Shown piece after piece: positions 5,283 to 62,400 of a stretch of 64,000 nt of DNA. Each line of letters begins with the position of its first letter. Positions within the stretch are counted from its first letter, which is position 1. This DNA is from Saururus chinensis (taxonomy: Eukaryota > Streptophyta > Magnoliopsida > Piperales > Saururaceae), in assembly GCA_035235625.1 (NCBI GenBank), contig CP141140.1, forward strand, positions 45,379,351-45,443,350. The letters run 5' to 3'. Under the pieces are notes generated by a model. That model was not told where the DNA came from. It did not search any database and saw nothing but the letters and a program-made list of their open reading frames with translations. The translations under genes were made by a program, and so were the position numbers.

Positions 5283-5287
5283 TAAAC

Positions 5288-5818
5288 TGATGCAACAGAG
5301 TTACTGAGAGCAACAAAGTTGATGCAACAGATTTACAGAGAAAAGTAAATTTTTAGTAAACCAAATAGCACACATAATTCCAAACAAGAAAACATAGGAT
5401 ATGGAGGTGGAAGAGTATGATATCTATTGAAAATTTTGTAAATTAGGGATCTACAAGCTTGAATCCACAAGCTAAAATCTTATAGAAGCAAAAGAAAATT
5501 ACACAAGGTTGAATCCACAATCCTAACTCAAATCCATGAGCCAAGAAGAAGAAATTTATGAAAGAAGCAATTCATTCAACTTTCGAATTCCTTTTTTTCT
5601 CTTTCCCCCCACCTCTTATCTCCTTTGGAATAACCACCTTTGACATCCTAACAAACTATGATACAAAATACTATTTTACCCCTCCCATTTACACCACCAG
5701 GGAGTTAACTAAAGACTTAGACAATTCTGCCCCTTTTGACCTCAGCTGGAGTATCAATTGTACACAGCTGTAGAAGGACTGAATTACCTGCTCTACATTA
5801 ATTAACCCCTCTACATTA
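5288..5818 (-). repeat. 3' LTR of the 5288-11163 chromovirus
   Basis: This is the downstream LTR in minus orientation, 531 bp. It aligns with 10642-11163 from TGATGCAACAGAG to the CCCCTCTACAT block. Small open frames on the plus strand (for example 5558-5773) have a counterpart in the other LTR and are non-coding shadows. Confidence 0.9.
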
Positions 5819-10620: not shown

Positions 10621-10640
10621 TTTCCCACAGACGACGCCAA
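10621..10640 (-). other. Primer-binding-site-like sequence
   Basis: Immediately inside the 5' LTR the minus strand reads TTTGGCGTCGTCTGTGGGAA. It resembles the TGGCGCCGTCTGTGGGAA class of primer sites seen in many plant gypsy elements. I cannot name the tRNA with certainty. Confidence 0.55.
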
Positions 10641-10641
10641 A

Positions 10642-11163
10642 TGATGCAACAGAGCTACGAAGAGCAGCAAAGTTGATGCAATAGATTTACAGATAAAAGT
10701 AAAGTTTCAACAAACCAAACAGCACATACAATTCCAAACAAGAAAACACAGGAAATGGAGGAGGAAGAGTATGATTTCTATTGAAATTTATGGAAAACAG
10801 GGATGTACAAGCTTGAATACACAAGCTAAAATCTTACAGATGCAAAAGAAAATTACACAGGGTTGAATCCACAATCCTAACTCAAATCCATGAGCCAAGA
10901 AGAAGAAATTTATGGAAATTCATTCAACTTTTGAATTCCCTTTTTTCTCATTTCCCCAACCTATCTCCTATGGAATAACTGCCTCTGATATCCTAACAAA
11001 TAGTGACACAAAAGACTATTTTACCCCTCCCATTTACATAAGCAAGGAGTTAACTAAAGACATGGACAATTTTGCCCCTTTTGACCTCAGCTGGAGTATG
11101 AATTGTACACAACTGTAGAAGGACTAAATTACCCTCTCTACATCAATTACCCCCTCTACATCA
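10642..11163 (-). repeat. 5' LTR of the 5288-11163 chromovirus
   Basis: This is the upstream LTR in minus orientation, 522 bp, paired with 5288-5818. Its outer end abuts the TAAAC target duplication at 11164-11168. Confidence 0.9.
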
Positions 11164-20799: not shown

Positions 20800-22856
20800 A
20801 ACTATAGAAGAACTAATACCCTAAATACTAGAAATTATCCACTCTATAGCCTCCTTATGATTTTTATGGTCATCAATTAATTTTTTCTCTTGATTATCTT
20901 CTGAACTAGAAGTAATGATGACTAAAGTTTCAAAAAAACCTAAAAACACATACTTGAGGGTATTAGGTAATGGTTTTAGATCCATCTCTTGTGGTTCCAT
21001 AGTGGATGGAAGGGATGGTGATGATGATAATGAAAGAGGAGCCACTTTAGTTTGCCATTTTTCAGTATTCATTGGAGGAACAAAATCTAGCAATGATTTA
21101 ACCTCTTCAACTGATTTGTCAATGTCAAACCCAAAACCAAAGTGTGCTAGACAAACCTCTAAGGGATCCTCAAAATGTGATTGGAAGAAGTTATCATGAA
21201 CAAAACTATCAATCATGTTAAGTCCATTCACATCCTCCATGTCCGGTGGCTGTTTGCTTATGTCAAAAATGTTGAACTCGACCGTCATGATACCAAAGAA
21301 TATTTTCATCACCCCATTTCTACAATTTATTAGAGCATTGGATATGACCAAGAAAGGACAACCGAAAGTGACAGGTATTTGCCTATGGATATTCTAAATA
21401 GGCTGAGTATCAAGGACTACGAAGTCTATTGGAAAGTAAAATGTGTCAACCTTAATCATAACATCTTCAATAACACCTCAAGGAAATTTTATAGATCTTT
21501 CAGCTAATTGAAGTGTCATTGATGTCGGTTTCAACTCTCCTAATCCCAATTGCACATACACAGAATGCCAATAAATTCACACTAACCCCTAAATCTAACA
21601 AAGCCCGCTCAATATGATGATCCCCTATCTTATATGAACTTGTGGGGCAACTAGGGTTCTTATATTTGACAAGGAATTTGCATAAAATGATAGAGCTGAC
21701 TTGCTCTATTAGGAATATATTTTTAAGAACATTTATTTTCCTCTTGACTATGACTAAGTCTTTTAAAAATATAGCATAAGAGGACACTTGCTGGATAGCC
21801 TAAAGGAATGGGATGAGAGTTTAATATATGTCAAATCGACCTAGCGGATCACTAGAGTGCTATTAAAACTATCCTTCCAACAAGTAAGAATTAAAAGCTC
21901 TAGCCTCTTTGTGCCAAATTTTTTATTAAGAAAAAATGATTAAAACCTAATATTCACTCAATTTTCTCTCTGATATTAACTAATCAGCCATCATCAATCT
22001 ACACATTAACACAATAATTTATGTGGAAAACCCGAGCTAGAGTAAAAGCTACAGTAGTTCGAAAAGAACCAGATCAATGCCCTAGAAACTAGAATTTTAC
22101 ATAGACACAAGAAAACCACCTACCTTGTTTAGACTTTAACACAAGTTAATCTTATTTTGATCGTTCTTGTTGGCCTACAAGTCTTCTCTAAGCACTTAAA
22201 ATTTTTACCTCCTTGCCTTGTCTATACTCCTTCAAATCTTCAACAAACACCATTTCTTGTCTTAACTTTGGCCTTAAGGAAATATTTAATCTTCCATTGA
22301 AGACATGCTACAACTCTTCTTTGAATACTTTGTGTATTAACTGTAATAACCCTAAATTCTAACATAATTTTCTTATATATTTTATTTCCTGAGTGTTGGT
22401 TAGAGCTCGTGGAGACGACCGTAACAAGTCTTAAAATGTAAAAATCGGAGGTCGGGAACAAAAGTTACAACCTCGGGAAACGTGTTCAACCGGCAGGAAC
22501 CACTTTTGAAATTTTGGTAAAACAATTCTTAAGTGGTCTAGTCTCGTAGGGCTCATCAATACGAGCTCAATGGTACCTAGAACGCGCAAATCCGAGTTCG
22601 GGATATGAAGTTACGATTTTTGGAATTTTTAGAAATAAAAATAAATAATAAATATATTTTTTTTGGCGGCTCGGCTCAGCGCGGCGTGGTGCAGCGCAGC
22701 GCACAGCATATGCCATGTGGTGCACACCGAACATGCATGTCGTACGCGTCGAATGCGCGCCGGGTGAGTGTTTGCTGTGACGAACGCGCATTCATCACGC
22801 GTGCACTCAGTTTCGCCGGCGTTAGTGGGCGCCGGTCGGTTTTTTGTGGCGGCGCC

Positions 22857-22870
22857 GGTGGGCGCCCACC
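22857..22870. promoter_or_regulatory. 14-bp perfect palindrome in the 5' LTR
   Basis: GGTGGGCGCCCACC lies 43 bp upstream of the TATA box inside a CpG-rich island. The same palindrome is retained in the 3' LTR at 29770-29783, although surrounding GC-rich sequence differs strongly between the two LTRs. It is a candidate protein-binding site. Confidence 0.5.
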
Positions 22871-22913
22871 TATTCCACCAGCAGCACCCACCAGAATATT
22901 CCTCCTCCTCCCC

Positions 22914-22921
22914 TATATATA
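22914..22921 (+). promoter_or_regulatory. TATA box of Tekay 5' LTR
   Basis: TATATATA sits in the context CCCC-TATATATA-CCC. It is identical in the 3' LTR at 29827-29834. Transcription would start about 30 bp downstream, defining the U3/R border. Confidence 0.75.
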
Positions 22922-24029
22922 CCCATTCTGGCCAGAATTTCACCCACATCCGATTTTCATCCCCTTACACTGTTTTCACCATTCCCAACCCGTTTTAAGT
23001 CCGATTTTCACGTTCCAAGACCCGTTTCCTACTAATTCAAGGGTGCTCTACGCACCGGAAGTGTTATTTTCTCAAGGCGACCCCTCTAAGACCTAAAAAA
23101 ATGTGCCCCTTCCCTAATCTTCCCTTTTCATCAATTTACTGTTTCTGGACCATTCCCAACCCTTTTTAACCCGTTCCAAAGCCCTTCCTTACTAAATCAA
23201 GGGCATTCTACGCGTTGGAGTGGTTATTCTACCAAAATTCTCACTCGAAGGCTGATATCTTAAGGAAGGTCTTTCTTTACTCTACGAGGAGATCTCGTTA
23301 TATTTTGCATGTATTATAGGTAGGTAGCTTTAAATTCTAATCGTATGCTGAGATTTTTACTCATTTAAGTTTTACTAAAAGTTTTCTGTTACTTTATGAA
23401 AACAAAAGCTCTGACTTTAAAATCATCTCCTCTTTTCAAAAATTTCTCCTAGTTTTGGGCAATTGTGCCGTCTAGATAGTTCTCGGTTCTTCGGAGCTAA
23501 GAATTATTATGATTTTGGATGCCGCCAAATTTGGCATCTGGCACGCACAGGATTGGGATGTCATATATAAATCCCTTCCTTTCTGTCTCGCGTCGCCCCA
23601 TGGGCGCGGGTGTAAGTTATCTGGTATCGCGACATTCTGTGATTGTGTTTTAAGATTTTCTGGATGATTTCAAAAGAAAAATGGCATGATATGTGCATGA
23701 AGCATATTCTTAGAAATTAATTCGACCTACTGAGTATGAATTTATTCACCTACCCTCAGACTCTGCAGGTGTTTCACTCGAATCTGAAGGAGTCGATGAA
23801 GGGTTTCCTTAAATTACAATTTTGTACTACTGTTTTTGTACTTATGTAAAATATTGTATTGACCAATGTACAAAGGCATGTGATGCCCAATTTTGGAAAT
23901 CTTTGTATAATACAAAGTGTGTTGTAATTACTGTTTTAGTACACGGTGATCCTTGGCAATTGTAATTAAATTTTGTTACATTTTTAAAAATTATTTTCTT
24001 TTATTCAAAAATATGAGGGACGTTACAGT

Positions 24030-24041
24030 TGGTATCAGAGC
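24030..24041 (+). other. Primer binding site (initiator Met tRNA)
   Basis: TGGTATCAGAGC starts two bases after the 5' LTR and is the standard complement of the plant initiator-methionine tRNA 3' end. It fixes the orientation and the LTR boundary. Confidence 0.92.
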
Positions 24042-24157: not shown

Positions 24158-24646
24158 ATGTCGATGCTCAAGCATAAGACATATCTGTCAAGCAATCTTT
24201 ATCATTCTACTGCTCGTAAATTGCCGCTTCCAATGAAAGGAAGTTGTAGCAAGAGTATGTACAATGAGGGTAAGACACCCATTGAAATTTCGGACTCAGA
24301 AGATTCTGAAATCTTTTACACCCCTGGTTCACCCACAAATAGTGACGTGAATGAAATAATAGTTATCTCGGACTCGCCTACTCCAAAAGAAGAGTCTGAA
24401 GAAGATCCCTCCTTGGAAGTGGAAGAAAGTGAAAATTCTAACGAGGATAACCCTGAATATGAAATGGATTTTGACCTAAACGAACTGCCCCCACCTGAGG
24501 TCGAATGGGTGGAAGAGCCAGGCGTCCAGCGTCTCCTCAAAGGGAAGGAAACCGGAAGGCATGGCATGCCCGAGCGGTGCACCTTTTGTGGACTTTTAAC
24601 CCACTTTTTCTTTGAATGTCCTAAAGCTAGAACCTTTCCTCTCTAA
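24158..24646 (+). CDS. Accessory ORF of the Tekay element, upstream of gag (function unknown)
   Basis: An uninterrupted frame of 162 codons from ATG 24158 lies between the primer site and gag, where Tekay elements usually have only leader. An in-frame non-ATG extension begins at 24143. The N-terminus is basic. Two hydrophobic-acidic patches follow: IEISDSEDSE and EIIVISDS with a long Glu/Ser tail, both resembling SUMO-interaction motifs. Next comes FDLNELPPPE, which fits the DLNxxP form of the plant EAR repression motif. The C-terminus has C-x2-C-x4-H-x4-C (CTFC...H...C), a retroviral-type zinc knuckle. About a fifth of the residues are acidic. It may be a nucleic-acid-binding accessory protein that contacts host SUMO or corepressor machinery, but that is inference from short motifs. 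It is not the main gag, which follows separately. Confidence 0.6.
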   Translation: MSMLKHKTYLSSNLYHSTARKLPLPMKGSCSKSMYNEGKTPIEISDSEDSEIFYTPGSPTNSDVNEIIVISDSPTPKEESEEDPSLEVEESENSNEDNPEYEMDFDLNELPPPEVEWVEEPGVQRLLKGKETGRHGMPERCTFCGLLTHFFFECPKARTFPL

Positions 24647-24842
24647 AGTCTTGACTACTTAGAGAAGAAGGTCTGTAAAAATCTCGAGTAAATAGTTCCG
24701 TGGGAATAATTTTGATGTGTACTAAGAGTAGTTTTATTATGTAAATAGCTAACGTAACTTTTGAGTGATGTAATGACCCTTCAAGGTTGTTATGAAGTAA
24801 GCTTGTTTTCTAAAGATCTTGATGTTACTAATCCATGTTTAG

Positions 24843-27800
24843 ATGACGAACGTTAGTGGTAGCGATGCTCAACCGGCAAGTTGCTCAACTTCACCAGATG
24901 TTACTACGCCGGTCACTTTGACAACGGGAGATCCTATGATGCACTTCGTGGACTTATTAATCCAAAGAATGACTCAAGGATTCCAATTGAATCATTTCAA
25001 TCATTCAACTAATTTGGGAGATAATACCCATGGTGAAAAGGATAATTTGTTGGAGCGCTTTAAAAAGCTTGCACCAACATTTACGGGAGAAGACGGCCCT
25101 GAGGCCACTGAAAGGTGGACCTTTGAAGTTGAACGGATTTTTAAAGCAATGAAGATCCCCAATGATTGTAAGGTGCCACTAGCCACTTTCTCTATGACTG
25201 GCGAAGCTGCTTTCTGGTGGCCTACAGCAAAAAGAAATTTCTTCACAGATGGTGATCATATTAAGTGGGAGGAATTTAAAGAAGTACTATACGATAAATA
25301 TTTTCCTCCTCACGTCCAAGAAAGAAAGGAAAAGGAGTTTCTAGATCTACAACAAGGAGGGTTAACGGTGACTCAATACGAGAATAAATTCGTACAATTA
25401 CAATGTTTCACTCCAGATTATTGTACGATAGAATTAAAGAAAGCTTGGAAGTTCGTGAGGGGCCTAAATAATGGATTAAGAGGAAGAATTATTGGCCATT
25501 AACCCATGACTTTTGCCAAAGCGGTTGAACTAGCTTCTATCCTAGAACAAGATTATATGAAATTTGTGGTTGGATGTAAGGACCAAGGACAAAATAATAG
25601 TTTCCGACCCAATGAGAGGAAAAGGAGGCTTACGTTTAACAATCAGAATAATCGTAAGTTTCAAAAGCCCTCAGAATCACCTTCACAACCAAGGGGAGAA
25701 AGGAAGCTAGAAAAATGTCCGCAATGCAGTAAAATCCATCCTCCTGGATCGTGTTATCGTACCGAAAGAAAATGCTTTTTCTGTGGTGAACAAGGCGATC
25801 AGATTAGAGACTGCCCAAAGAGGAAAATGCAAGAAGAATCAAAATCAGAGCAGAAACCAAAAGCTCAAGTGCGGGTCTTCGCAATTACCACTGAGGAAGC
25901 TCAAGCGTCGACCGCAGTCATTCAAGGTACACTTCTGGTCTTGGATAAATTAGCAAAAGTCTTGATAGATCCAGGGTCGACACATTCTTTCATATCGTTC
26001 GATTTTGCTTCAGGTCTTGGCTATCCTATTTTAAATTTAGGATATGTCTTAGAAGTGTCCACCCTGATGGGAAAAATGTTTCTAGCTCGTAAATTTCTTC
26101 AGGGGATACCTGTCTCCTTAGAGAAATGCCAGTGGGAGGCCGACCTTATTCTCCTAAATATGACCGACTTCGATGTCATATTAGGTATGGATTGGTTAGC
26201 CAATAACGGGGCATTAGTAGACTGTAAACAGAAGAAGGTGATCTTTGAACGAGGCAAAAGGAGTTTTACTTTTTATGGGCTTAAGGATCATTCCAAGCCA
26301 TGTATCATCTCGGCAGTCAAAGCTCGTCGGCTTTTAAGTAAAGGATGTCAGGCTTATCTTGCTAGTATGGAAACTAGTGAGACTACTACGTTTAACTTGA
26401 AGAGTATTGATGTAGTACAAGATTTCTCTGACGTTTTTCCTGATGATCTCTCTGGTCTGCTACCAAAAAGAGAGATAGATTTTTCTATTGAGTTGATGCC
26501 AGGAACAAGCCCTATCTCTAAAGCACCTTATCGCATGGCTCCTATGGAGTTAAAAGGTCAATTGCAGGAATTACTTGAGAAAGGATTCATACGACCCAGT
26601 GTCTCTCCTTGGGGAGCACCGGTCTTATTTGTGAGAAAGAAAGACAGGTTGTTAAGGTTGTGCATTGACTACCGACTTCTCAATGCCATCACTGTAAAGA
26701 ACAAGTACCCCTTGCCTCGTATAGATGACTTGTTCGATCAATTGCAGATGGTTAAAGTTTTCTCCAAAATAGATCTGCGGTCAGGTTATCATCAGCTAAG
26801 GATACGAGATGGGGATATCTCTAAAACAGCTTTCCGTACCCGATATGGCCACTATGAGTTTTTAGTGATGCCATTTGGTTTAACAAATGCCCCGGCCGCC
26901 TTCATGGATCTCATGAATAGAGTTTTTAGGCCCTTTTTAGACAAGTTTGTAATCGTGTTCGTCGATGACATCCTCATCTACTCTAGTAGCTTAGAAGATC
27001 TCCGAGTGCATTTACAAGTAGTTCTGCAAACATTAAGGGATCATAAGCTATACGCCAAGTTTAGCAAGTGCGAATTTTGGATGGAACAAGTGGTGTTCTT
27101 AGGACACGTCATTTCAAAGAACGGAGTATCGGTGGACCCAACCAAGATAGAAGCTGTCATCAAATGGGAAAGGCCAAAAACAGTAACGGAAATTCGGAGC
27201 TTCTTAGGCCTTGTGGATTATTACCGAAGATTCATCCATAGATTTTCAAGTATTGCCCTGCCCCTGACAAAATTGACAAGGAAAGGAGTTAAATTTGTTT
27301 GGGATGAAACTTGTGAACAAAGTTTCCAAGAACTAAAGGAAAAATTAACAACTGCACCTGTTCTGGCATTGCCGACTGTAGTGGGGGTTTTGTCGTGTAT
27401 AGCGATGCTTCTAAAAGAGGATTAGGATGCATATTAATGCAAGACGAAAAAGTGATAGCATACGCTTCACGATAATTAAAGAAACATGAAGGTAACTACC
27501 CTGCACACGATTTGGAATTAGCAGGATTAGTTTTTGCTTTAAAAATTTAGAGGCACTATCTTTATGGGGAAATGTTTGAAGTTTTCACCGATCACCAAAG
27601 TTTAAAGAACATCTTTTCCCAAAGTGATCTTAACATGAGGCAAAGATGGTGGATCGAATATCTTAAGGATTATGACTTTTCTATCAAGTATCATCCTGGA
27701 AAAGCCAACGTAGTAGCTGATGCTTTAAGTCGCAAATCTGGGGGATTGGCTTTCATGCTTATTAAGGAGTGGAAACTGTTGGAAGAAACAATAGGTTGTC

Positions 27801-29270
27801 AACCTGAATTACAGCTTGGAAATAAGAAATCGTTCATTGCCAACCTAGAAATAAAATCAATACTAGTTGAGCGTATTCTAAAGGTCAGAAAGGTAATGAA
27901 GAAATGCAAACTCTACTCGAAAGCTCTGACTTCACCCAGGGCTCTGATGGAAGTGTACGATTTTGAGGACGGTTGGTAATACCCGAAATTCCTGAGCTAA
28001 GGGAAGACCTATTACATGAAGCACATCGTTCTCGATATACTATCCACCCAGGAGGAATGAAGATGTATCAAGATTTAAAAAGAAGTTTTTGGTGGAATGG
28101 AATGAAGAAGGATATAGGAGAATATATTTCGAGATGCTTAACTTGTCAGCAAGTTAAAGCCAAACACCAAAAACCTTCAGGGTACCTGCAAACGATTGAA
28201 ATCCCCGAGTGGAAGTGGGAACACATTACTATGGATTTCGTCTCAGCACTACCCAGAACTTCACAAGGCCATGAATCCATTTGGGTGATCGTGGATCAAC
28301 TCACAAAGAGTACACACTTTCTTCCATTAAGAAAGAAGCAATCCTTAAGTTCATTGGCAAAATTATACGTGAAGGAAATTGTGAGCCGACATGGGATACT
28401 GCTATCGATCATCTCATATCGGGATAGTCGATTTACCTCCAAGTTTTGGCAAGGATTTCAAGAAGAATTGGGTACAAATCTTAAGTTCAGCACTGCTTTC
28501 CACCCACAGATGGATGGTCAATCAGAAAGAACTATCCAAACTTTGGAAGATATGTTGCGCGCTTGCACAATGGATTGGAAAGGTAACTGGGACGAACATT
28601 TGCCGTTGGTCGAGTTCGCCTACAACAACAACTTTCATAGTAGTATAGGTATGGCACCTTATGAGGCATTGTACGGATGACCTTGTCGATCACCGACGTG
28701 TTAGAATGAAGTGGGAGAACGAAGATTGATTAAGTCTGAACTTCTGCAACAGTGTGCAGATAAGGTGAAACTTGTCAAGCGTCATCTAATGGCATCCCAG
28801 AGTCGTCAAAAGAGTTATGTTGACCAAAGATGGAAAGATATCGACTTTATCGTAGGAGATCAAGTATTACTAAAAGTTTCACCAACCCGAGGAGTCATGG
28901 GATTTGGAATTAAAGGCAAACTAAGTCCTCGCTTCGTAGGACCATTTGAAATTTTGGACAAAGTAGGAGCTATGGCTTACAGATTAGCCTTGCCTCCACA
29001 ACTCAGCAATGTCCACGATGTATTTCACGTATCCATGCTTAGAAAATACGTCTGAGACTCCTCTCATGTTCTTGATCATAGTTTAATTACTGTCAAGCCC
29101 GACCTATCATTTGAAGAAAAGCCACTTAAAATTCTGGATCACAAGGAACAGATCTTGAGGACTAAAAGGATCCCCTTAGTCAAAGTGCTATGGTAGTACC
29201 ATTCCTCGGAAGAAGCCACTTGGGAGCTGGAGAGCGAAATGCAAAAGAAGTACCCTAAGTTATTCATTTA
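24843..29270 (+). pseudogene. Gag-pol region of the Tekay element
   Basis: Gag starts at ATG 24843 with the retrotransposon-gag block (ERWTFEVERIFKAMK, FSMTGEAAFWW, YFPPHVQERKEKEFLDL). A Cys-rich knuckle region lies near 25720-25815. The protease has [10 protein letters not shown] near 25970. RT spans roughly 26520-27130 with [29 protein letters not shown] and [11 protein letters not shown]. RNase H is near 27570-27740 ([26 protein letters not shown]). The integrase zinc finger is near 28020-28190 and its catalytic core near 28230-28680. A chromodomain-like segment with EEATWELE lies near 29200-29265. This order is standard for chromoviruses. The copy is fossil, with roughly half a dozen interruptions. 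Confidence 0.9.
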
Positions 29271-29305
29271 GTGAATAATTCAAATTTCGAGGACAAAATT
29301 TCTCT

Positions 29306-29318: not shown

Positions 29319-30939
29319 TGTAATAACCCTAAATTTTAACATGATTTTTTTATATATTTTATTTCCTGAGTGTTGGTTAGAGCTCGTGGAGACAAGCGTA
29401 ACAAGTCTTAAAGTGCAAAAATCGGAGGTCGGGAACAAAAGTTACGACCTCGGGAAACATGTTCAACCGGCGGGAACCACTTTTGAAATTTTGGTAAAAC
29501 GATTCTTAAGTGGTCTAGTCTCATAGGGCTTATCAATACGAGCTCAACGGTACCTAGAATGCGCAAATCCAAGTTTGGGATAGTAAGTTACGATTTTTGG
29601 AAATTTTGGAAATTAAAATAAATAATAAATATATTTTTTTGGCTGCTCGGTGAGGCGTATGCCGCGCGCCGAACTCGCGCGTTGAATGTGCACTGGGCAC
29701 GCGTTCGTCACGCGCGCACTCAGTTTCTCCAGCGCCAGTGGGCGCCGGCCGGATTTTTGCGGCAGTGCCGGTGGGCGCCCACCTGTTCCGGCAGCGGCGC
29801 CTACTGGAATATTCCTCCTCCTCCCCTATATATACCCATTCCGGCCAGAATTTCACCCACATCCGATTTTCATCCCCTTTCATTGTTTTCACCATTCCCA
29901 ACCCGTTTTAAGTCCGATTTTCACGTTCCAAGACCTGTTTCCTACTAATTCAAGGGTGCTCTACGCACCGGAAGTGTTATTTTCTCAAGGCAACCCCTCT
30001 AAGACCTAAAAAAATGTGCCCCTTCCCTAATCTTCCCTTTTCATCTTTTTACTGTTTCTGGACCATTCCCAACCCTTTTTAACCCGTTCCAAAGCCCTAC
30101 CCTACTAAATCAAGGGCATTCTACGTGTTGGAGTGGTTATTTTGCCAAAATTCTTGCTCGAAGGCTGATATCTTAAGGAGGGTCTTTCTTTACTCTACGA
30201 GGAGATCTTGTTATATTTTGCACGTATTATAGGTAGGTAGCTTTAAATTCTAATCGTATGCTGAGATTTTTACTCGTTTAAGTTTTACTAAAAGTTTTCT
30301 GTTACTTTATGAAAACAAAAGCTCTGACTTTAAAATCATCTCCTCTTTTCAAAAATTTCTTCGAGTTTTGGGCAATCGTGCCGTCTGGATAGTTCTCGGT
30401 TTTTCGGAGCTAAGAATTATTATGATTTTGGATACCGCCAAATTTGGCATCTGGTGCGCACATGATTGGGATGTCATGGATAAATCCCTTCCTTTCTGTC
30501 TCGCATCGCACCATGGGCGCGGGTGTAAGTCGTCTGGTATCGCGACATTCTGTGATTGTGCTTTCAAATTTTCTGGATGATTTCAAAAGAAAAATGGCAT
30601 GATATGTGCATGAAGCATATTCTTAGAAATTAATTCGATCTACTGAGTATGAATTTACTCACCTACCCTCAGACTCTGCAGGTGTTTCACTGGAATCTGA
30701 AGGAGTCGACGAAGGGTTTCCTTAAATTACAGTTTTGTACTACTGTTTTGTACTTATGTAAAATATTGTGTTGACCAATGTACAAAGGCATGTGATGCCC
30801 AATTTTGGAAATCTTTGTATAATACAAAGCATGTTGTAATTACTGTTTTAGTATGTGGTGATCCTTGGCAATTGTAATTTAATTTTGTTACGTTTTCAAA
30901 AATTGTTTTCTTTTATTCAAGAATACGAGGGACGTTACA
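29319..30939 (+). repeat. 3' LTR of the Tekay element
   Basis: TGTAATAACCC to GACGTTACA, 1621 bp. It is close to the 5' LTR except in the GC-rich block (29640-29720), which is about 65 bp shorter and poorly alignable. The TATA box (29827-29834) and the 14-bp palindrome (29770-29783) are conserved. Confidence 0.95.
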
Positions 30940-40260: not shown

Positions 40261-41168
40261 TGTAAAACATACATGTCATATGTAATGTTAATAGGCTAAT
40301 TTTGTTTGTCAAAATTATTTTAGAAACTTTAAGTACATAGTTAATCATAAAAATCTAATTAGATGTAGTTGGAACTGATAGACTTGAAAAATAGGAGCAA
40401 GCATGTTTTTATGTATCAAGATTGAAGACTAATGATTGTTGGTAGCTTAAGAAGTTTATTTAGTACACATTCTCATACAAAAGTTACTTGGAGAAGTTTT
40501 AGAAATGATTTTGGAGGTTTTAAATGGATTTATGATGAAAAGAGTAAAATTATAATTATACAATATTATCGATTAATTGTTGGAGAACATACAAAGAGAA
40601 ATGATTGATTGGTACTTGAATCCACCATTTGTTAAATGATGCCAAGAGTATATCAATCAATGAAGGAGTCATGCCTTAAGAAAACAGTGAGCGATTGATC
40701 ACTATTTGAAATAATCTATCACAAACAGTTTTAGTAGCCCTAAATATGTTTTTCCAAAATAGTTTTCTTTCCTAGTTAAAGTCAAGGAGTTAGTCTGATT
40801 GAGATACCTATATAGAGGCTAAGTTGTGACAAAATTAAAGAGAGAAAAACTTAGAAATATTGGAGAAGAAATGAGAGTCCTTCGCATATTATTTTTCACA
40901 AGAATTCACAAAAGAGCTTCAAGAAATTATTCATGGTGAATTTATGTTGATACAAAGCCCAATTGAGATGATTTCACACATAAATTTTAGAGAAGAGTCA
41001 ACAAAGTTATTTAAGAGTTGAATAATTTCCAGAGGTAAATAAATAAAGAAGGAAGTAGTCTTTGTTTGAGTTGTTAGAAGAAGGCAGCAATGAGCAAAAC
41101 ACAAAGTACAAGGGTTAGAAGCAATATAGTGATCCACTATTGCCATCTTGTTGGATATTAAACTCTCA
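40261..41168 (+). repeat. LTR of SIRE-type copy A
   Basis: It starts TGTAAAACATACATGTC and ends AACTCTCA, with a TATA-like CCTATATAGAGG near 40807 and a GATCAAT-rich upstream half (40560-40730). At 908 bp it is shorter than its relatives. Confidence 0.75.
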
Positions 41169-43394
41169 AGGGGTAGCTGAGGACTTTTATTGAAAATTTG
41201 AGTTTGATTTATGCTATCAATCTATATTTGCATGCTAGTGCATCATAGTTTGCTTAATCTTCCTAGATTTTGATTTCTAGTGTTAGATATCTTGTGCCAT
41301 GGTTTGATCTCTTAATTATGCTTAGTTTACTTGTTTTCTATCATAATTACTTAAAAATTTACTGATTTGTGTTCCCTAGTTTGTTAGTTTGCTTACTCAT
41401 ATATTTCTCCTTACCTTGCATACCTCAATTTTGTTGCTTAGGTGATTTAAGTTTGTTTAATTTTAATGGCCATGTCAAATAATTCAATAAATGAACATGG
41501 TCATTTGGGTAATCCTATGAATCATCCACTATTTTTAATGGTCAAATGGTTTCTTATTCGATGAATAGGATGAGAGCATTTATTCAAGTGCTTGATAGAA
41601 ATTTAATCTTAAAAGATGAGAGTAAATAAGATGCAAATGAAACAAAACTTGCAAATTAAAACAAGAAGGCCCCTCAGTGCTTTGTTTAATGTCGTAGGAA
41701 AGTCACAACATAAGTTAATCTCAAATTGTACATTTGCTAAGATTGCATAAGAAAAACTTGTGAAGTATAATGAGGGTATTGAGGTTTTCCAAAGGGTCAA
41801 AGTTAAAAATGTTTACCCTTGAATTTGAAAACATGATATGATTAAAGATGAAACTACTTTTTAATATTATGCTAAAATATCAGACAATGTTATCACTTGT
41901 GATAAATTAGGGGAGCCCATTCTTGATTCCCAAGTTGTGAGAAAATTGTTAAGGTCCTTCTTCTCTAAATTTAAAATTAAGGTGAGAACAATTAATTAAT
42001 CTAAAAATATAGATACCTTAGACATTAAGGAGCTAGTTGGGAACCTTCAAACATTTTAGATGTAAGAAGAATCTTATGAAAATAAGAAGCAATTGAAAAG
42101 GCAAAGGGAAAATAAACTGCCCTTAAAGCATCTAAGAAAACTTCCAAACAAAATAAAACTTCGAACAACTTCGGAGAATCTGAAGAATATAAGGATGATG
42201 ATTAATTAATGCTTTTAGTTGCTAGTAGTAAGTTAGGTCATTTTGCTATTGATTGTCCTAAAAATAATTATGAAAATTCTTCTAATGATTAGCCTAAGAA
42301 ATGAAAGGGATTTTATAACAGGAGAAAGGGCAAGGTGCTTCAAGCAACTTATTCAGATTAGAGTTCTTTTGATAAAGATGAAATGTGTAACTATACTGCC
42401 TTCCATACAAGTGTGAAGGAAGATAGTTTTGGAAGAAGAGTCTCATGAATACACTTTGCTAGAGGAGAACTCAGAGTTTGACTTTGATTCTGATGAGTAC
42501 AAAGGGTTCCTCTATTAATTTCATAGTTTTTACTAGGAAAACCAAAAACTATGAGAGAGAGTTGAAAAAGAAAGATGATGAATTAGTGTTGTCTTCTCAA
42601 GAGACAAAACAGGTGAGTGGAGTTGAACATGAAACTTGAGAGATAAGCGAGTAACTTTAAGAAAGTCCTTGAGAATGACAAAGAGAAGTCTAGTTCTCTC
42701 AATATATACCTTATATCTACTAAAGAAAAATTAGATGGATTTGAGAGTGGGAAAAAGAAGTTGGAAATCATGTTGAGCATTGGTCAAACCAACAAGATGA
42801 ATTTAGGTTTTAATAATTCCTTGACTACTCCCTTAGCAAAACCTATTATCTTTGTAAATGCTAAAGATAGTGCTAAAAACCGAAAGATAGTGCCCAACCC
42901 ACCTTGGTTAAAAAGGAAAGGAGTGAGGATAGGTTCTAGTATTGTGGGTGTGTGTGGCATATATCATAGTCATTCCTATACTAGAAGAGAGCGGCCAAAG
43001 AATCATCCTTTGAAACTTAGGTCAAAGAAAAAAGAGAAGAATGACAGTATGAGAAGAAGATAAACACAGTATGGGTGAGGAAAAGCATTGAAGGATAAAT
43101 TAGAAAAAACAAGGAATCTCTAAGTAAGGAGATTTAGATTTTTGTCCATGAGTTAATTCTTTCGATCTTTTTAACACACATGTTTTAGTTTTTATCGTAT
43201 TTTGCTTTGTTTTCATGACTTTAATTCATCAGTTTGAATTGAAAATATGATAACAAATAAAAAACATAGTGTAGCTTTAGTAATTGGCCTTGATTTTGTT
43301 TCTAGTTAATTCAGCTCTCAAGACAAAATAAAATTAATTTTTTTTACGCTGAAAAATAACATGATTAGTAGTCAAACATACTTTAATGAGAAGG
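40261..43394 (+). mobile_element. SIRE-type Ty1/copia element, copy A, gag without recognisable pol
   Basis: An LTR (40261-41168) ending ATATTAAACTCTCA is followed by a leader of about 300 bp, a gag region (41466-43063) and a non-coding tail (43064-43394) that aligns with the tail of copy B (62002-62340). Gag features match copy B: a coiled-coil segment with TMLSIGQTN-like ending and a Cys-His knuckle (GVCGIYHSHSYTRRE). The expected protease and integrase never appear. A Tekay-type gag fragment follows directly. The copy is broken in many places. Confidence 0.7.
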
Positions 43395-44350
43395 ATAAAA
43401 CACTTTACATTACTTCAATTTATTTTGTTTTCATACCATGTTAGTTTGATTCTATTTTTTTATAGTGGTATATAACAAATAACATTTGCTAGATAATACA
43501 ATCTCCTTTAGATAGGACGAAAAACAATGTAGGGGTTGAATATGTGCTGAGCATTGAAATGTTTCTAAAAACTTCTTTTGTTAATCTTTGTCTAGATGTC
43601 GCCCTACTAGAGGGGAGGGCAACAATCCAATAGCTTCACCCCCAGATGATAATGCAACCAATGACTCTATGTCATAATGTTTAGATTTAGTGATGCTAAA
43701 GATGATTCAACATCTTAAAGCTCATGGTTATTAGAGAAATAATTCCAATAATTTGGGAGAATGTAGTTATGAACAAAAGAAGAATATGATAGGGTTATTA
43801 AAAAAACTCATTCTAACTTTTACAGGAGAGAATGGCCCAGAAGATGTTGAAAAGTGAACTTTTAAAGTGGAAAGGATCTTCAAGAGATGAAGATCCTGAA
43901 GAATGCAAAAATTTCATTGGCTACTTTCGCCATGACAGGGGAGGCTGCATTCTAGTGGCCAACTGCATAGAGAAATTTCTTTCCAAATAGTAATAAAATT
44001 AATTGGGAAGAATTGGTGAAGTGTTGGACGACAAGTATTTTCCTCCACATGTTCAAGAGTAAGAATGAAAATGAGTTTCTTGATTTCTAGCAAGTTATCA
44101 TGACTAATTAAGCTTCTAAATAATTATCCTGATTGGTGGAAAGTATTTATGCACCTTAATTATAATATTTTTGTAAAGCTTGTTTATAGAACTTAATTCA
44201 ACCGACTAACTATAAATATACTCATCCACACCTTGATATTGCAGGTGTAGCACCAAAGTTGGTAGAGAATGAAGAAAAGCTTATGTAGTTTTCATTATTT
44301 TGGTTTTGGTTAACTTTGTTTATATATGTTGTGACTAATATGGAAAAGAA
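43395..44350 (+). mobile_element. Tekay-type gag and LTR fragment adjoining copy A
   Basis: After an AAACACTTTAC junction, the sequence encodes blocks parallel to the intact-order Tekay gag at 24843: LATFAMTGEAAF, NKINWEELVK and FLHMFK (compare FSMTGEAAFWW and FPPHVQ). It continues into 44180-44350, which matches the TACTGAGTATGAATTTATTCACC...GCAGGTGT step of the Tekay LTR. The fragment is a broken relic. It shares its left edge and order with 49007-50035. Confidence 0.65.
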
Positions 44351-47790: not shown

Positions 47791-49006
47791 TACAAGAATG
47801 TATGAGTCATATGATTAGTTTATTGGTTAATTTTTTTATCAAAATTATGTCATTAAACAATATGTATGTTAGAAGTCTTAGAGTTTTATTTGAGGTTTTT
47901 GTGGTCAAGTTAGATTTGGAATTGATAGTTTTGAAAAATAAAAACATACATGCTCTTATTGATCCAGGTGAGAGACTGAAGAATTTGAAGGGTTTTGAAG
48001 CATATCCAAATCACATTGGCATGCATAAATTACTTGGAAAAGGTTAAGAAGTGATTACAAAGGTTTTAAAAGATTTTTAGGTAAAAAATGCAAAATTGTA
48101 AATTGTTAGGCAAAATAGACAATCACTATATAGAACTATTGAACACAACAATCTATCTCTAGAACATGGTTTTTGAAGACTGATGAATTGATCAATCGCC
48201 CTGATAAATAATCACCACATGCTATAGCTCTGTGCAAAATGAAGGCTAGAGTTATTGATCAATCACTAGAAGGATCGTGCACATTGAAATTAGTGACCGG
48301 TCGATTGTTGTGTCAAATGACCGATTGTTTCAGGGACTGTTTACCTAATTTAAAACATTCTAATTTCAATTTCATTCCTTATTCAAGTAAAAGTCTTAAA
48401 CAGAGGGTTTACACTTTTGATCATTGTTTTCCAAGGGAGAATTCACTTGAGCTTTGTATTGAAGATCTATGGTGAATTGAAGAACACAATCCACAAATGA
48501 AGAAGTTAATACACACAATTTTCAAAGGGGAGTTGCAGTATATCTTCAATGGGAAATTGAAGATTTTCACAAGACCAAATTCAAGGCAATAATAGGAGAT
48601 TGTTGATGACTAGAGGCATATATAGACAAAGTAAGGAGAAGAAAGTTTCAAGTGCTTGGAGAAGACATCAAGACCAGCAACAACAATCTAAATAAGAGGA
48701 GCTTGTACTACATTCTAAACAAGGTTGGTGGTTTACTTGTGTCCATGTAAAATTTGAGTTTTAGTGCATTGATTTGGTTCCTTTGGAATTGTTGAGGTTT
48801 TTTACCCTGCTTTTGGGATTTTCCACGTAAATTTCTTTGTCTATGTGGATTAATTGATAGATAATTCAAGAGTGAAACTGAGTAAACAATTAAATTTTAA
48901 TTATTTATAAAAAATTATGCATAAAGAGGCTAGAACTTTGAAAAAGGATTAGTTTTAAGAGCAATTAGTGATATACTAGGTTTATTAGATAGATATTCAA
49001 CTCTCA
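47791..49006 (+). repeat. SIRE-type LTR, copy C
   Basis: About 1216 bp. It aligns with the reverse complement of the solo LTR 21814-31694 from GTATGAGTCATATGATTAG through GTCAAAATTATGTC, GACCGGTCGATTG and CCTTATTCAAGTAAAAG, and ends ATTCAACTCTCA at 49006. It is rich in TGATCAATC motifs at 48180-48330. It is followed without any SIRE-type leader by a Tekay-type gag fragment. Confidence 0.75.
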
Positions 49007-50035
49007 AAACACTTTACGTTACCTAAATTTATTTTGTTTTCAAACTTCGTTAGTTTTACTCTTCTGTGTTTTATAGTGGTATATAAAAAATAACTTTTGC
49101 TAGATAATACAATATCCTTTAGATAGGAAAAAAAATGTGTGGGCCGAATATGTGCTAAGCTTTGAAATGTTTATTAAAACTTCTTTTGTTAATATGTGTC
49201 TAAATGTTGCCTACTAGTGACGAGGAAATGCAACAATTCAATAGCTTCACCTTAGTTGATGCTGTAACTCAGAGTATGTTAACAATGGGCTATGTCAAAA
49301 AGTTTAGATTTAATGATGTAGAAGATGACTCGACATCTTCAAGCTCAAGGTTATCAACCAAATCATTCCAATAATGTTGGAGAATGCAGTTATGGAGAAA
49401 AAGAATAATCTGCTCAAGTGGTTCAAAAAGTTCATGCTAGATTTTTCAGGAGAGGACGACCTAGAAGATGCCAAAATGTGAACTTTTAAAGTGAAAAGGA
49501 TCTTCAAAGTGATGAAGATCTCGGAGCATCAAAAAGTATAATTGGTTACATTAGCCATAATGAGGGAGGCAAAATTCTAGTGGCCAACTAGAGAGTGAAA
49601 TTTCTCCTTGAATAGTTAAAATTAAGTGCAAAGAATTTAGGGAAGTGTTGGACGACAACTGTTTTCCTCCCATGTTCAAGAGAAGAAGGAAAATGAGTTT
49701 TTAGATCTCTAGCAAGTTAGCATGATGTTTGAACAAAATGAAAACAAGTTTATGCAATTACAACTTTTTGCCCCAGGCACATGTCCCATAGAGTTGAAAA
49801 AGGCTTGGAAGTTCAGGAGAGGCATAAATCACAATCATTGAACTTATAGGCCTCAAACAAGCTACCTATGCTAAAGTTGTAGAGTTGGCATCCATTTGGA
49901 CCAAGAACACCAGGAGTTTTTAGTAGAGTGCAAAAACCTTGGACAAAAAAATGACCGAAAACCTGATGAGGGTAAGCGGAAATTTCCATTCAATAAATCG
50001 TTACGGTAAACAAAAAAATTGTTAAACTTCATAGT
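49007..50035 (+). mobile_element. Tekay-type gag fragment adjoining LTR copy C
   Basis: It starts AAACACTTTAC like 43395 and encodes gag-like blocks (EFREVLDDNCFPP, then YAKVVELASIW, compare [11 protein letters not shown] in the Tekay gag). It ends near 50035 after a KRKFPFN block. It is broken in many places and older than the full Tekay copy. No LTR of its own was recognised. Confidence 0.65.
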
Positions 50036-58600: not shown

Positions 58601-59908
58601 TGTTAGAACATATATGCAAGTTGTTAGGTTATTTTGCTAAGTTCCTTGTCAAAATTATGTAAGAAATCTTGAGTATGTAATTAGTCTTAAAATCTAATTA
58701 GTTGTAGTTGTAGTTGTAGTCGAGTCAGGTTTAAAATTGATAGACTCAAAAAATAGAAGCAGACATGTTCTTGTTGATCAAGACTAAAGGATGTTGATAG
58801 GTTATAAAGCTTATTCAGTTTACATTCTCATACCAAAATACTTAGAGATATTTTTGAAGTGATTTAAGAGGTTTTAGTGTAAAAATAATAAAACTATCAT
58901 TAAATCGTGTCATTGATCGATCATTTATGAACAATGGCAAGGAATCGATGAATAGATCAATCACCCCTATAAATGATCAATCAACAACTAAATTAGTCAT
59001 TTGTAAAATAAAACCAAGAGTTTATTGATAGATCACTTTGTAGGCTGATTGATCACTTAAGGAGTTGTGTGTTTACAAAACAGTGAATGCTCAATTGCTA
59101 TTTGAAATGATTGATTTCTAATAGTTTTCGTTGCCCTAAAAAAGCCTTTCCATATTAGATTTCTTTCCTTGTTATAGTCAAACTGCCAAATCATTTTGGA
59201 GACCCATATAAAGGATAAGACGTAACGAGATCGAATAGAGAAAAACCAAGAATAATTTGGAGAAGAAAGGAGAGTCTTTTTCATATTATTTTCCTTGAGA
59301 ATTCACAAAGGAGTTTGAAGAGAATATCAATGGTAAATTCATGCTAATATACAACTTAAAAGAGAAGATTTCACACAAAAATTTTAGAGAGAGTAGTCAG
59401 AAAGCTCTTCAAAGATGTTGATGAATTTCAAAAGGTAGATCAACAAGCAAGGAAGGAGCTCTTGTTTGAGTTGCTAGAAGAAGACAGAGATTAGAACACA
59501 AAGAGGGAAATCGTCAAGGCTTCAGTGGATGGAGTAACTTGAACTCTAATAATAAGAGAAGATTGAAAAAAAAGAGGTTATGTCAAGTCTTAAGGTTCAT
59601 TGGTTGTTTTAAATCTAGTAAAATATATATCATTTGAATGCATTGATTTGGCCTTGTAAGGCTACCAAGTTATTTTTACCTAAGTTTGAGATTTCCATGT
59701 TAAATGCTTGTGTGATTGTGTAGTTTGCATGTGGTTTGTTGATTGATTGATCATGGATAAATTTTAATACTTATATTTGCTTATTCCACTTTAAAAATAA
59801 TTTTTTGTGCATCAAGGCTAGAACTCATAGTCATTATCTTTGTTAAATAATCAAACTAGAGGCAACTAGTGATATACTAACCTCATCAATATGGATATTA
59901 AACTCTCA
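58601..59908 (+). repeat. LTR of SIRE-type copy B
   Basis: 1308 bp, starting TGTTAGAACATATATGC and ending ATATTAAACTCTCA. A CATATAAAGG TATA-like site lies at 59217-59222. GATCGATC/GATCAAT motifs cluster at 58910-59110, upstream of it. Confidence 0.8.
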
Positions 59909-60189
59909 AGTGGTAACTAAGGATTTTCGTTAAAAATTTGAGTTTGTTTCTTGATATCAATCTATTTTTTTATGTTAGTGCATCACTAACTTGCTTAATC
60001 TTCCCATATTTTGATTTTGAGTGCTACATAGCTTGTTTGAAGGTTTGATTTCTATGCCTAGTGAACTTGTTTTCTTTAAGAATTACTTGATAAATTTGCT
60101 GATTTGTGTACCCTAGTTTGCTTCTATTATAATTCTCCTTACTTTAATTGCTTAAAGTGTGTAGCTTCGGTGATTTTGGTTTGATTAAT

Positions 60190-62001
60190 TTCTACGACTG
60201 GGTCATTTAACTCAATTAATGAACATGAAAATCTTGGTAATCCTATTAATCATTCACCATTGTTTGATGGTCAAAACTTTTAATATTAGAAGAATCGGAT
60301 GAGAGCTTTTATTCAAGAACTTGATGGGAATGTTTGGAAAGCAGTGATTAAAGGTTGGAATCCTCCAATGACCAAAGACAAAAGTGGAAATTTAATCTTA
60401 AAAGATGAGAGTGAATGGTATAAAAATGAAATAAAACTTATAGATCAAATTATTAAAGCCCATAGTTCATTGTTGAATGTTGTAGGAAAATCACAACAAA
60501 GGTAAATTTCTAATGGCACATTTACCAAGGTTGTATGCGAAAAACTTGTAAAATATAATGAGGGAAGTGAAGCTATTAAAGTGTCTAGGCTATAGATGCT
60601 TACCCTCTAATTTGAATACATGATAATGAGGAAGATGAGACTATTTCTAAATTTATGCAAAGATATCAGGCATAGTAAATACATGTGATCAATTAGGGGA
60701 GCCCATACCTGATTACCTAGTTATGAGGAAATATTTAAGGTCCTTGTTCTCTAAAAATAAAATTAAGGTGTCAGTTATTACTAAATCTAAAACAATAAAT
60801 ACCTTAGACATTGAGGAGTTGGTTGAGAACCTTAGAACTTTTGAGATGTAAGAAGAATCTTATGAAAATAAGAAAGAGTTGTTTGAAAAATCAAAGGGAA
60901 ACCAAAATGATCTAAAAGCATCTAAGAGAACTTTCAAAAAGAATGAAGCTTTGAACACCTTAGAAGAATTTGAAGAATCTGAAGAAGGTGAGGAACTAAT
61001 GCTTTTGTTAGCTAAAAACTTGGAGAAATTCATGAAGTCTTAGAACTTTAAGTTTAAGAATAACGGTCAAAATTTAGGGAAGAGATGAGGGGATAAGAGG
61101 GATGAGAGGCAAAATAAACAAAACAAGAAGAATATGAAGTATTTTGAAAGTGGAAAGATATGTCACTTTGCTACTGATCAACTTAACAATAATTTTTGTT
61201 ATCCACAAGAGAAATGGCAAGGAGCTTCAAACAACTACTTTGATGAGAGTTCTTATTATGAAGATGAGATATGTAACTGTACAGCCTTCCTTGCAAGTAT
61301 GAAGGAAGATAGTTCTGAAGAAGAGGCCCATGAGTCCACTTCTCTTAAAGTGAACACAAGAGTCTGAGTTTTATTTTGATGAATACAAAGGTGTCCTCAA
61401 ATACTTCTTAGTTTTGACTAGGACAACCAAAGGCCTTGAGAGAGAGTTGAAAAATAAAGAGGATGATTTAGTTTTGTCTTCTCAAGAGACAAATAGGTTA
61501 GTGGAGTTAAATATCAAACTTGAGAGAGAAGTGAGTAAACTTAAGAAAGACCTACAAAATAATAAAGAAAAGTCTAGTGCTCTAAATAGAGAACTTATGT
61601 CTTTTAAAGAGATAATAGAAGGATTTAAGAGTGGGAAGAAGTTGGAGACCATGTTGAGCATTGGTCAAACTAACAAGATTTGTTTAGGTTTTAAGAATTG
61701 TTTGACTAACCTTAGTAAAACTACTATCTTCATGAAGGAAAAGGAGATTGACAAAAACCCTAAGATAATGTCCAACCCACCTAGGTCAAAAGCGAAATAA
61801 GTGAGGATATGTTCTAATATTGTGGGTGTGTATGATATATGTCATAGTGATTCCCATACTAAAAGAGAGTGTCTCAAGAATCATCGTTTCAATCTTATGT
61901 CAAAGAAGGAGAAGCACACAATACACGTTACCCCTAAGTTGCCCCACCAAGTTTATGAAAAGAAGATGAAATGTGTGTGGGTGAAGAAGAATGATCTTTA
62001 A
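60190..62001 (+). pseudogene. SIRE-type gag region of copy B
   Basis: N-terminal blocks RMRAFIQELDGNVWKAV and MTKDKSGNLILKDE belong to the UBN2/DUF4219-type copia gag. A middle part with EELVENLRTFEM-like sequence near 60810-60850 is typical of SIRE. An acidic stretch follows near 61240-61340, then a clear heptad coiled coil (61420-61640: ERELKNKEDDLV, LNIKLEREVSKLKKDL). A Cys-His knuckle near 61830-61880 and a KCVWVKK C-terminal motif come last. It is a fossil with several interruptions. Its role in a working element would be to form the capsid-like particle. Confidence 0.75.
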
Positions 62002-62400
62002 GCATTGAATGATCAATTAGGAAGAGCAAAGAACAACACTTTATGTTTTTAGGCAACGCTAAGGAGCATGTCATCTCTATGTAAATAGATTCTGATTTAC
62101 GTCAATGATTTAATTCTTTCGATATTTTGGACACTCCTTTTTTTATTTTTATCATATTTTAATTTATTTTTTCATATTTTTAATCCATTGGTTTGAATTA
62201 GTAAAAAAAAAGATGATAAGAACCACAAAAAAATTAGTGTAGCTTTTGCTCATTTTTGCAATTGGCTTTGATTTTATTTTTGATTAGTTCAACTCTTAAG
62301 AAGAGAAGAATACACTATGAGAGTGAGGATTAGTGATCAAACATAACTTAAAGAAGAGAATGATACACAATGAGAGTGAAGATCAATTTGATTTTCTTTA

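Follow-up and report, generated by a model that had tools for sequence, protein, structure and literature searches.

Introduction

The question raised by this locus is whether an open reading frame lying between the primer binding site and gag of a plant retrotransposon encodes a protein of the element and, if so, what such a protein could do. The frame was pointed out in a preliminary description of a 64,000-nucleotide stretch of the Saururus chinensis genome (hereafter the window; contig CP141140.1, positions 45,379,351 to 45,443,350 of the forward strand). That description noted SUMO-interaction-like, EAR-like and zinc-knuckle motifs in the frame and suggested a retroelement protein that links nucleic acid to the host SUMO or corepressor machinery. 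It also held that Tekay/Del elements go from the leader straight to gag, a generalization contradicted by published work: extra open reading frames (ORFs) on the 5′ side are reported in Retrosat2-type elements of rice, maize and sorghum (PMC3485330), Retrosat-2 being placed in Tekay/Del (PMC6317226), and in the sunflower Tekay group 2, where a 5′aORF occurs in 500 of 523 elements (PMC11728184). According to a review, extra ORFs are more often situated between pol and the 3′ LTR (PMC7264820). Such ORFs are numerous in plant LTR retrotransposons, and a survey describes their proteins as highly heterogeneous, with only about one-fifth resembling a known domain; its minimum of 250 codons means that short ORFs such as the present one, of 162 codons, would be passed over (PMC6317226). 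Thus, 5′ extra ORFs of Tekay/Del elements are known already. In the titles, abstract openings and passages covered, no plant retrotransposon extra ORF with SUMO- or EAR-like motifs is described, and we found no description of the present frame, which we call ORF0, with these motifs.

Results

Layout of the element

The element is delimited by two direct repeats on the plus strand, the 5′ LTR (22342–24027) and the 3′ LTR (29319–30939), which are 90.0% identical over 1686 aligned positions with 104 mismatches. The aligned end of the 5′ LTR at 24027 is followed by a PBS-like site, TGGTATCAGAGC (24030–24041, plus strand, read by eye), which we take to be a primer binding site of the initiator-tRNA-Met type, and then by ORF0 (24158–24646, plus strand). 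As stated in the preliminary description, ORF0 translates without a break through 162 codons to its stop, and 196 nt separate its end from the gag ATG (24843). The gag frame (24843–25502, plus strand; Retrotrans_gag, PF03732, E = 7e-16) closes with a stop at 25502 in the window copy. The remaining gag-pol region (25506–29271, plus strand, end set by eye) comprises the gag knuckle, protease, RT, RNase H, integrase and a chromodomain region, the pol of the window copy being interrupted by stops. The succession of gag, protease, RT, RNase H and integrase is that of Ty3/gypsy elements, and the Chromo model (PF00385) matches the 81-residue tail of one copy (L031) with E = 2e-5 and 24.9 bits, against a gathering score of 25.1. 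Domain order and C-terminal chromodomain together indicate a chromodomain Ty3/gypsy element, with which the clade name Tekay, taken over from the preliminary description, is consistent. ARAGORN found no tRNA in the window.

Other repeated sequences occupy the window. Two decayed Ty3-type gag regions (43397–44103 and 49006–49835) have 39–46% amino-acid identity to the gag of the ORF0 element and apparently leave no room for an ORF0, with about 130 nt from a possible PBS-like site to the likely gag start (by eye); TTAATCTTTGTCTAG stands directly before the likely gag ATG of the first region, and an altered form of it before that of the second. Direct repeats at 5285–5816 and 10639–11161, 87% identical, flank Ty3-type pol fragments on the minus strand and probably represent another old LTR element. 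Diverged copies (73–78%) of a segment of about 2.2 kb, aligned in several pieces, lie at 41116–43323 and 59857–62301, an inverted repeat with two adjoining 84-nt arms (88% complementary, no spacer) at 2361–2528, and a tandem pair of 117-nt units (98% identical) at 296–529.

ORF0 in the home genome

The home genome (516 Mb in 11 contigs) was searched with the window ORF, which gave 644 candidates, the best 150 being scored, and with a far copy (L059), which gave 151 matches from 548 candidates; the frame is thus present in other members of the family within this genome. We read 59 copies: the 50 best-scoring ones, plus nine divergent copies chosen from the matches that lacked stops. Their first residue is Met in every case, and 51 of them contain no stop. 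Where the flanks were read as well (50 copies), the aligned gag start has an ATG in all except L033 and L034. Among the matches listed, 117 of the 150 best gag matches have an ORF0 relative 183–342 nt upstream on the same strand, and 117 of the 163 listed ORF0 places have a gag downstream; for the other 33 of the 150 gag places, an upstream ORF0 is not among the matches listed, which does not equal absence. ORF0 is therefore a conserved frame located between the primer binding site and gag on the same strand, as is characteristic of the 5′ extra ORFs of plant LTR retrotransposons. The gag and protease-region queries gave 3011 and 3287 candidates (best 150 scored), against 644, 548, 884 and 704 for the various ORF queries; this several-fold excess means that many related elements may lack ORF0 or carry one too diverged to detect.

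Of 20 copies, 16 allowed alignment of their LTR pair, with 0.008 to 0.074 substitutions per site between the two repeats, some of these values coming from partial LTRs. At the commonly used plant rate of 1.3e-8 per site and year, this corresponds to about 0.3 to 2.8 million years, and the family has therefore been active recently. The subfamilies, judged by their mean dS of 0.33, are several times older.

Anatomy of the protein

The protein is rich in Glu, Ser and Pro, and its single-sequence AlphaFold model (mean pLDDT 51.7, low confidence) is mostly unstructured. The motifs quoted in the preliminary description, IEISDSEDSE, IIVISDS, DLNELP and C-x2-C-x4-H-x4-C, are all present in the window ORF. 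SUMO-interaction motifs (SIMs) and EAR motifs are short, the former following the rule of a hydrophobic core beside acidic or Ser residues and the latter including a DLNxxP form. The first SIM-like stretch, IEISDSEDSE (residues 42–51; 24281–24310, plus strand), conforms to [IVL]x[IVL]xDSED in 53 of the 59 copies. The second (residues 67–76; 24356–24385, plus strand) reads IIVISDSPTP in the window copy, and its core pattern is found in 55 of 59 copies; the spelling IIVISDS is correct for the window copy but not representative, since residue 71 is Ser in one copy and Pro in 56, with [IV]IVIPDS found in 38. DLNxxP, contained in DFDLNELPPPEVEWVE (residues 104–119; 24467–24514, plus strand), is intact in 54 copies and broken in five, while DLNxL is intact in 57. 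Finally, the C-terminal CCHC pattern (residues 141–156; 24578–24625, plus strand) is kept in 55 copies and broken in four. ORF0 thus carries a putative EAR motif of the DLNxxP form and a predicted CCHC zinc knuckle of C-x2-C-x4-H-x4-C spacing, both conserved.

How far these spellings could arise by chance was estimated from 20,000 shuffles of ORF0's own composition. The CCHC pattern never appeared, DLNxxP appeared in 0.3% and [IVL]x[IVL]xDSED in 0.01% of them; but 16% contained a loose SIM pattern and 7% some EAR form, so that the mere presence of SIM- or EAR-like motifs is weak evidence and their conservation is the real evidence.

Pfam contains no family for the window ORF, which its knuckle models do not reach, and on the ten copies used to build a profile it returned only the Lin-28 knuckle, in two of the ten and with a best E of 0.07; PHROGs gave one hit, at E = 0.05. 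The ten-copy profile had 12 hits among PDB sequences at E up to 10, and 10 of these are CCHC knuckle proteins aligned in register with the knuckle of ORF0: LIN28 entries (E = 0.015 to 2.3), a zinc-knuckle protein (0.43) and two retroviral nucleocapsids (1.8 and 4.4), each match being weak and individually not significant. The two other hits have E values of 0.83 and 7.4. This profile search agrees with the knuckle call of the preliminary description through the kind of protein retrieved, at sub-significant scores throughout. The knuckle of ORF0 probably binds nucleic acid.

Selection on ORF0

By counting, dN/dS among the window copy and the nine divergent copies is 0.41 in the true frame (bootstrap 0.31–0.53) and 0.54–1.00 in the other five frames. 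A codon model fitted to the ten divergent copies gives omega = 0.64 (kappa = 4.0), nearer to 1 than the counting estimate, with lnL = −2299.6 versus −2306.4 for the best run at omega = 1; the omega = 1 runs were made at fixed kappa values only, six in all, which makes the doubled difference of about 13.6 approximate. Both methods place Ka/Ks below 1 for the home-genome copies, as the preliminary description had asked of elements of related plant genomes, and indicate purifying selection across subfamilies. For the 17 copies whose gag has a long open frame, dN/dS is 0.27 (0.18–0.44) for ORF0 and 0.21 (0.17–0.27) for gag. Length differences of whole codons in the nine divergent copies are not independent evidence, these copies having been picked for open frames.

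Some of the non-synonymous change is expected to reflect decay following insertion. Among the 50 close copies, variants found in more than four copies number 12 non-synonymous to 17 synonymous, and single ones 64 to 32. Among the ten divergent copies, shared changes (63:36) and single-copy changes (78:35) have similar ratios, which does not favour the decay reading.

A frame open by chance, for which only the modest length of ORF0 speaks, is ruled out by the frame-specific purifying selection and the conserved start, and we regard it as extremely improbable. ORF0 is almost certainly a selected protein of the element.

Constraint is distributed unevenly along this protein. Regional dN/dS is lowest in the DLNxLP block, DLNELPPPEVEWVE (0.15), followed by the knuckle (0.23), the first SIM-like stretch (0.31), the N-terminal residues 1–37 (0.33) and the second SIM-like stretch, the weakest of the motif blocks (0.52); the linkers reach 0.63–0.86, the acidic one changing freely at 0.86. 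Ranked by amino-acid difference among 162 sliding windows, residues 9–33 (24182–24256, plus strand) come out lowest of all windows of their 25-residue length. The other four blocks are unremarkable when taken one by one, with DLN at rank 12, the knuckle at 17, the first SIM-like stretch at 19 and the second at 41. Taken together, the five blocks, which were picked after viewing the alignment, have a mean amino-acid difference of 0.16, compared with 0.35 for the rest, and each of the 161 other circular shifts of the mask gives a higher value. The blocks show no such reduction in synonymous differences (0.18 inside, 0.14 outside), so the constraint acts on the protein. Residues 9–33, which the preliminary description missed, contain to our knowledge no recognised motif, and the SUMO/corepressor model does not account for them.

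A far relative and the reach of the module

Matches to the gag query (best 150 of 3011 candidates) tail off at gags of 62–69% identity. Upstream of a 67% identical gag, situated in an open frame of 1531 residues, 901 bases were read (locus L060) and found to encode 195 residues of a diverged ORF0 whose 5′ end falls outside the locus; its stop stands 239 nt before the gag ATG. Two segments of the L060 protein can be aligned with the window ORF, one reaching from DLN to the C-terminus (26 of 61 residues identical, E = 1e-11) and one surrounding the second SIM-like core (17 of 38, E = 5e-5). The protein keeps the same order of second SIM-like core, acidic linker, DLN-x-LPP and C-x-F-C-G-x3-H-x-FFECP, with EVIDVPESP, NFDLNKLPP and CVFCGVRGHYFFECPTRKIFP as the respective counterparts of EIIVISDSP, DFDLNELPP and CTFCGLLTHFFFECPKARTFP in the window. 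The acidic linker of L060 is built of PFEEE/PYEEE-like repeats (minus strand, about 740–520). Motif conservation thus extends to this distance for the knuckle, DLNxLP and the second SIM-like core, which are the deep parts of ORF0. In the portion of L060 covered, which lacks the 5′ end of its ORF0, neither the first SIM-like stretch nor the N-terminal block nor EVEWVE could be recognised.

With all 195 residues of L060 as query, 221 matches were obtained from 884 candidates, some of which its acidic repeats may have matched by composition. A query restricted to the 63-residue DLNxLP-knuckle module gave 704 candidates, the best 150 reaching down to 47% identity. These 150 include a third class at about 47–60% identity, often in open frames of 200–376 residues without stops, and eight of its members share one score, 59.2 bits, as expected of a recently multiplied element. 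A collection of virus contigs yielded no relatives with the window ORF, the ten-copy profile, gag or L060 as query, and a collection of prokaryote contigs yielded none with the profile, a result that says little about other plants.

Candidate splice signals

The interval from the ORF0 stop to the gag ATG contains five to eight other ATGs in the 47 copies counted, and six in L060, which makes simple re-initiation at gag hard. A candidate splice donor, GTAAGT, is located in the LTR (23612–23617, plus strand) of 49 of 50 copies; no other GTRAGT was found in the 1.3 kb that precede ORF0. An acceptor-like stretch, consisting of a branch-like TACTAAT and then TTTAG, ends at the gag ATG (24826–24842, plus strand); across 50 copies its columns are common to 48–50, with one column at 43, in a leader that is also well conserved as a whole (0.88 to 0.98 per 50-base bin). 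In L060, too, AG stands immediately before the gag ATG; the other element, at 43.6 kb, has AG before its likely gag ATG, and its copy at 49.2 kb does not. Over all ATGs of the window, the rate is 90 of 1536. The ORF0 ATG likewise comes directly after AG in 55 of the 59 copies, the window copy not being one of them, as if both ATGs followed splice acceptors.

The candidate donor and the acceptor-like sequence may mean that gag is made from spliced RNA, a tentative suggestion that we hold to be rather doubtful. ORF0, being the first long ORF on the RNA, would then be made from the unspliced transcript, and gag, placed behind the further ATGs and directly after the acceptor-like sequence, from the spliced one. 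Among plant LTR elements, introns are described for Ogre and EVADE, and splicing is also reported for BARE1 (PMC12786077).

Discussion

A proposed role for ORF0

We propose that ORF0 is a small, mostly disordered accessory adaptor of the Tekay-type lineage that binds nucleic acid, a reading to which we give an even chance. Conservation is concentrated in an N-terminal block, short hydrophobic/acidic stretches, DLNxLP and the C-terminal CCHC knuckle, with freely changing acidic linkers between them. The knuckle would hold nucleic acid, the likeliest ligand being the RNA (or cDNA) of the element itself, and the linear motifs would dock host nuclear proteins; such docking could help to export, protect or place the RNA or the integration complex of the element. 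That ORF0 serves as an adaptor for host nuclear factors is suggested by its motifs at somewhat less than an even chance. The natural candidates for these factors would be SUMO-modified proteins for the second SIM-like core and TOPLESS-type corepressors for DLNxLP; from the motif spellings, we consider it unlikely that SUMO, a corepressor or both is the actual partner. Quite unlikely in our estimation is the full version of the scheme, in which an entire superfamily of plant chromoviruses would have a dedicated adaptor to tie the nucleic acid of the element, via a detached nucleocapsid-like knuckle, to SUMO-modified proteins and a TOPLESS-type corepressor, with ORF0 unspliced and gag spliced.

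Alternatively, ORF0 could be a second knuckle protein whose sole task is to package, chaperone or export the RNA of the element, much like a detached nucleocapsid, the acidic part being a spacer and the SIM- and EAR-like spellings incidental. The knuckle is indeed the clearest domain of ORF0, the knuckle of the element's own gag is spelled alike (C-x-F-C-G ... C-P-K, by eye), the acidic linker is free to change, and the export factor reported in the Cer1 element offers a precedent (PMC12786077). However, a mere spacer leaves unexplained why DLNxLP has the lowest dN/dS of all regions and persists in L060 alongside the second SIM-like core, and we judge this helper role somewhat unlikely. The same motif set could instead belong to an effector directed against the host, in which DLNxLP and the SIM-like cores would act on corepressors and SUMO pathways, titrating or redirecting them and so weakening the silencing of the element; Vandal DNA transposons are described as having an extra protein that protects them against silencing (PMC11728184). 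Since recruitment of a corepressor could equally silence the element, and the motifs are short, an effector of this kind seems a distant prospect.

The frame could also be a fragment of a host gene carried along by the element, since capture of host pieces is documented in plant LTR elements (PMC7264820) and knuckles are common in host proteins. Against such an origin stand the two diverged ORF0 classes in front of gag (the window type and L060), the selection acting on ORF0 and the lack of a Pfam host family, although a host homologue could have escaped genome searches that score about 150 best candidates each. We consider a captured fragment very unlikely.

Relation to known extra ORFs

The adaptor proposed here can be set beside several known systems. 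Like the sunflower 5′aORF, ORF0 belongs to an element of the same clade name, lies upstream of gag, is conserved in most copies, and is mostly disordered with a biased composition; as compared by description only, the sunflower protein differs in being 402 residues long and proline-rich, with three predicted helices and a basic nuclear signal, and the passages describing it mention no knuckle (PMC11728184). ORF0 likewise resembles its namesake in Retrosat2, RIRE3, RIRE8 and their grass relatives, which is an extra ORF upstream of gag-pol in the Retrosat2/Del group and has a higher Ka than gag-pol. The grass frame differs, again by description only, in being found in grasses and not in the dicot and Selaginella relatives of that paper, and in that its passages propose enzyme-like functions and describe no knuckle module (PMC3485330). 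A further extra protein of a plant Ty3/gypsy lineage, the orchid AlkB-type m6A demethylase, is said to act on the element's own RNA, as is proposed here for ORF0; unlike ORF0, it is an enzyme domain with a known host homologue (PMC9289625, PMC12786077).

With retroviral nucleocapsid and LIN28-type knuckles, which supplied its best PDB profile matches, each weak, ORF0 shares the C-x2-C-x4-H-x4-C spacing. In contrast to these proteins, it has a single knuckle that ends an acidic disordered protein and lies outside gag.

ORF0 is thus an extra ORF with a readable anatomy, selected, present in hundreds of candidate places and built around a few conserved short motifs. These motifs offer concrete mutants and partners, and hence a route to how plant chromoviruses handle the nuclear machinery of their hosts. 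If the superfamily adaptor and the spliced gag were both true, they would amount to a retrovirus-like accessory-gene system in a plant retrotransposon.
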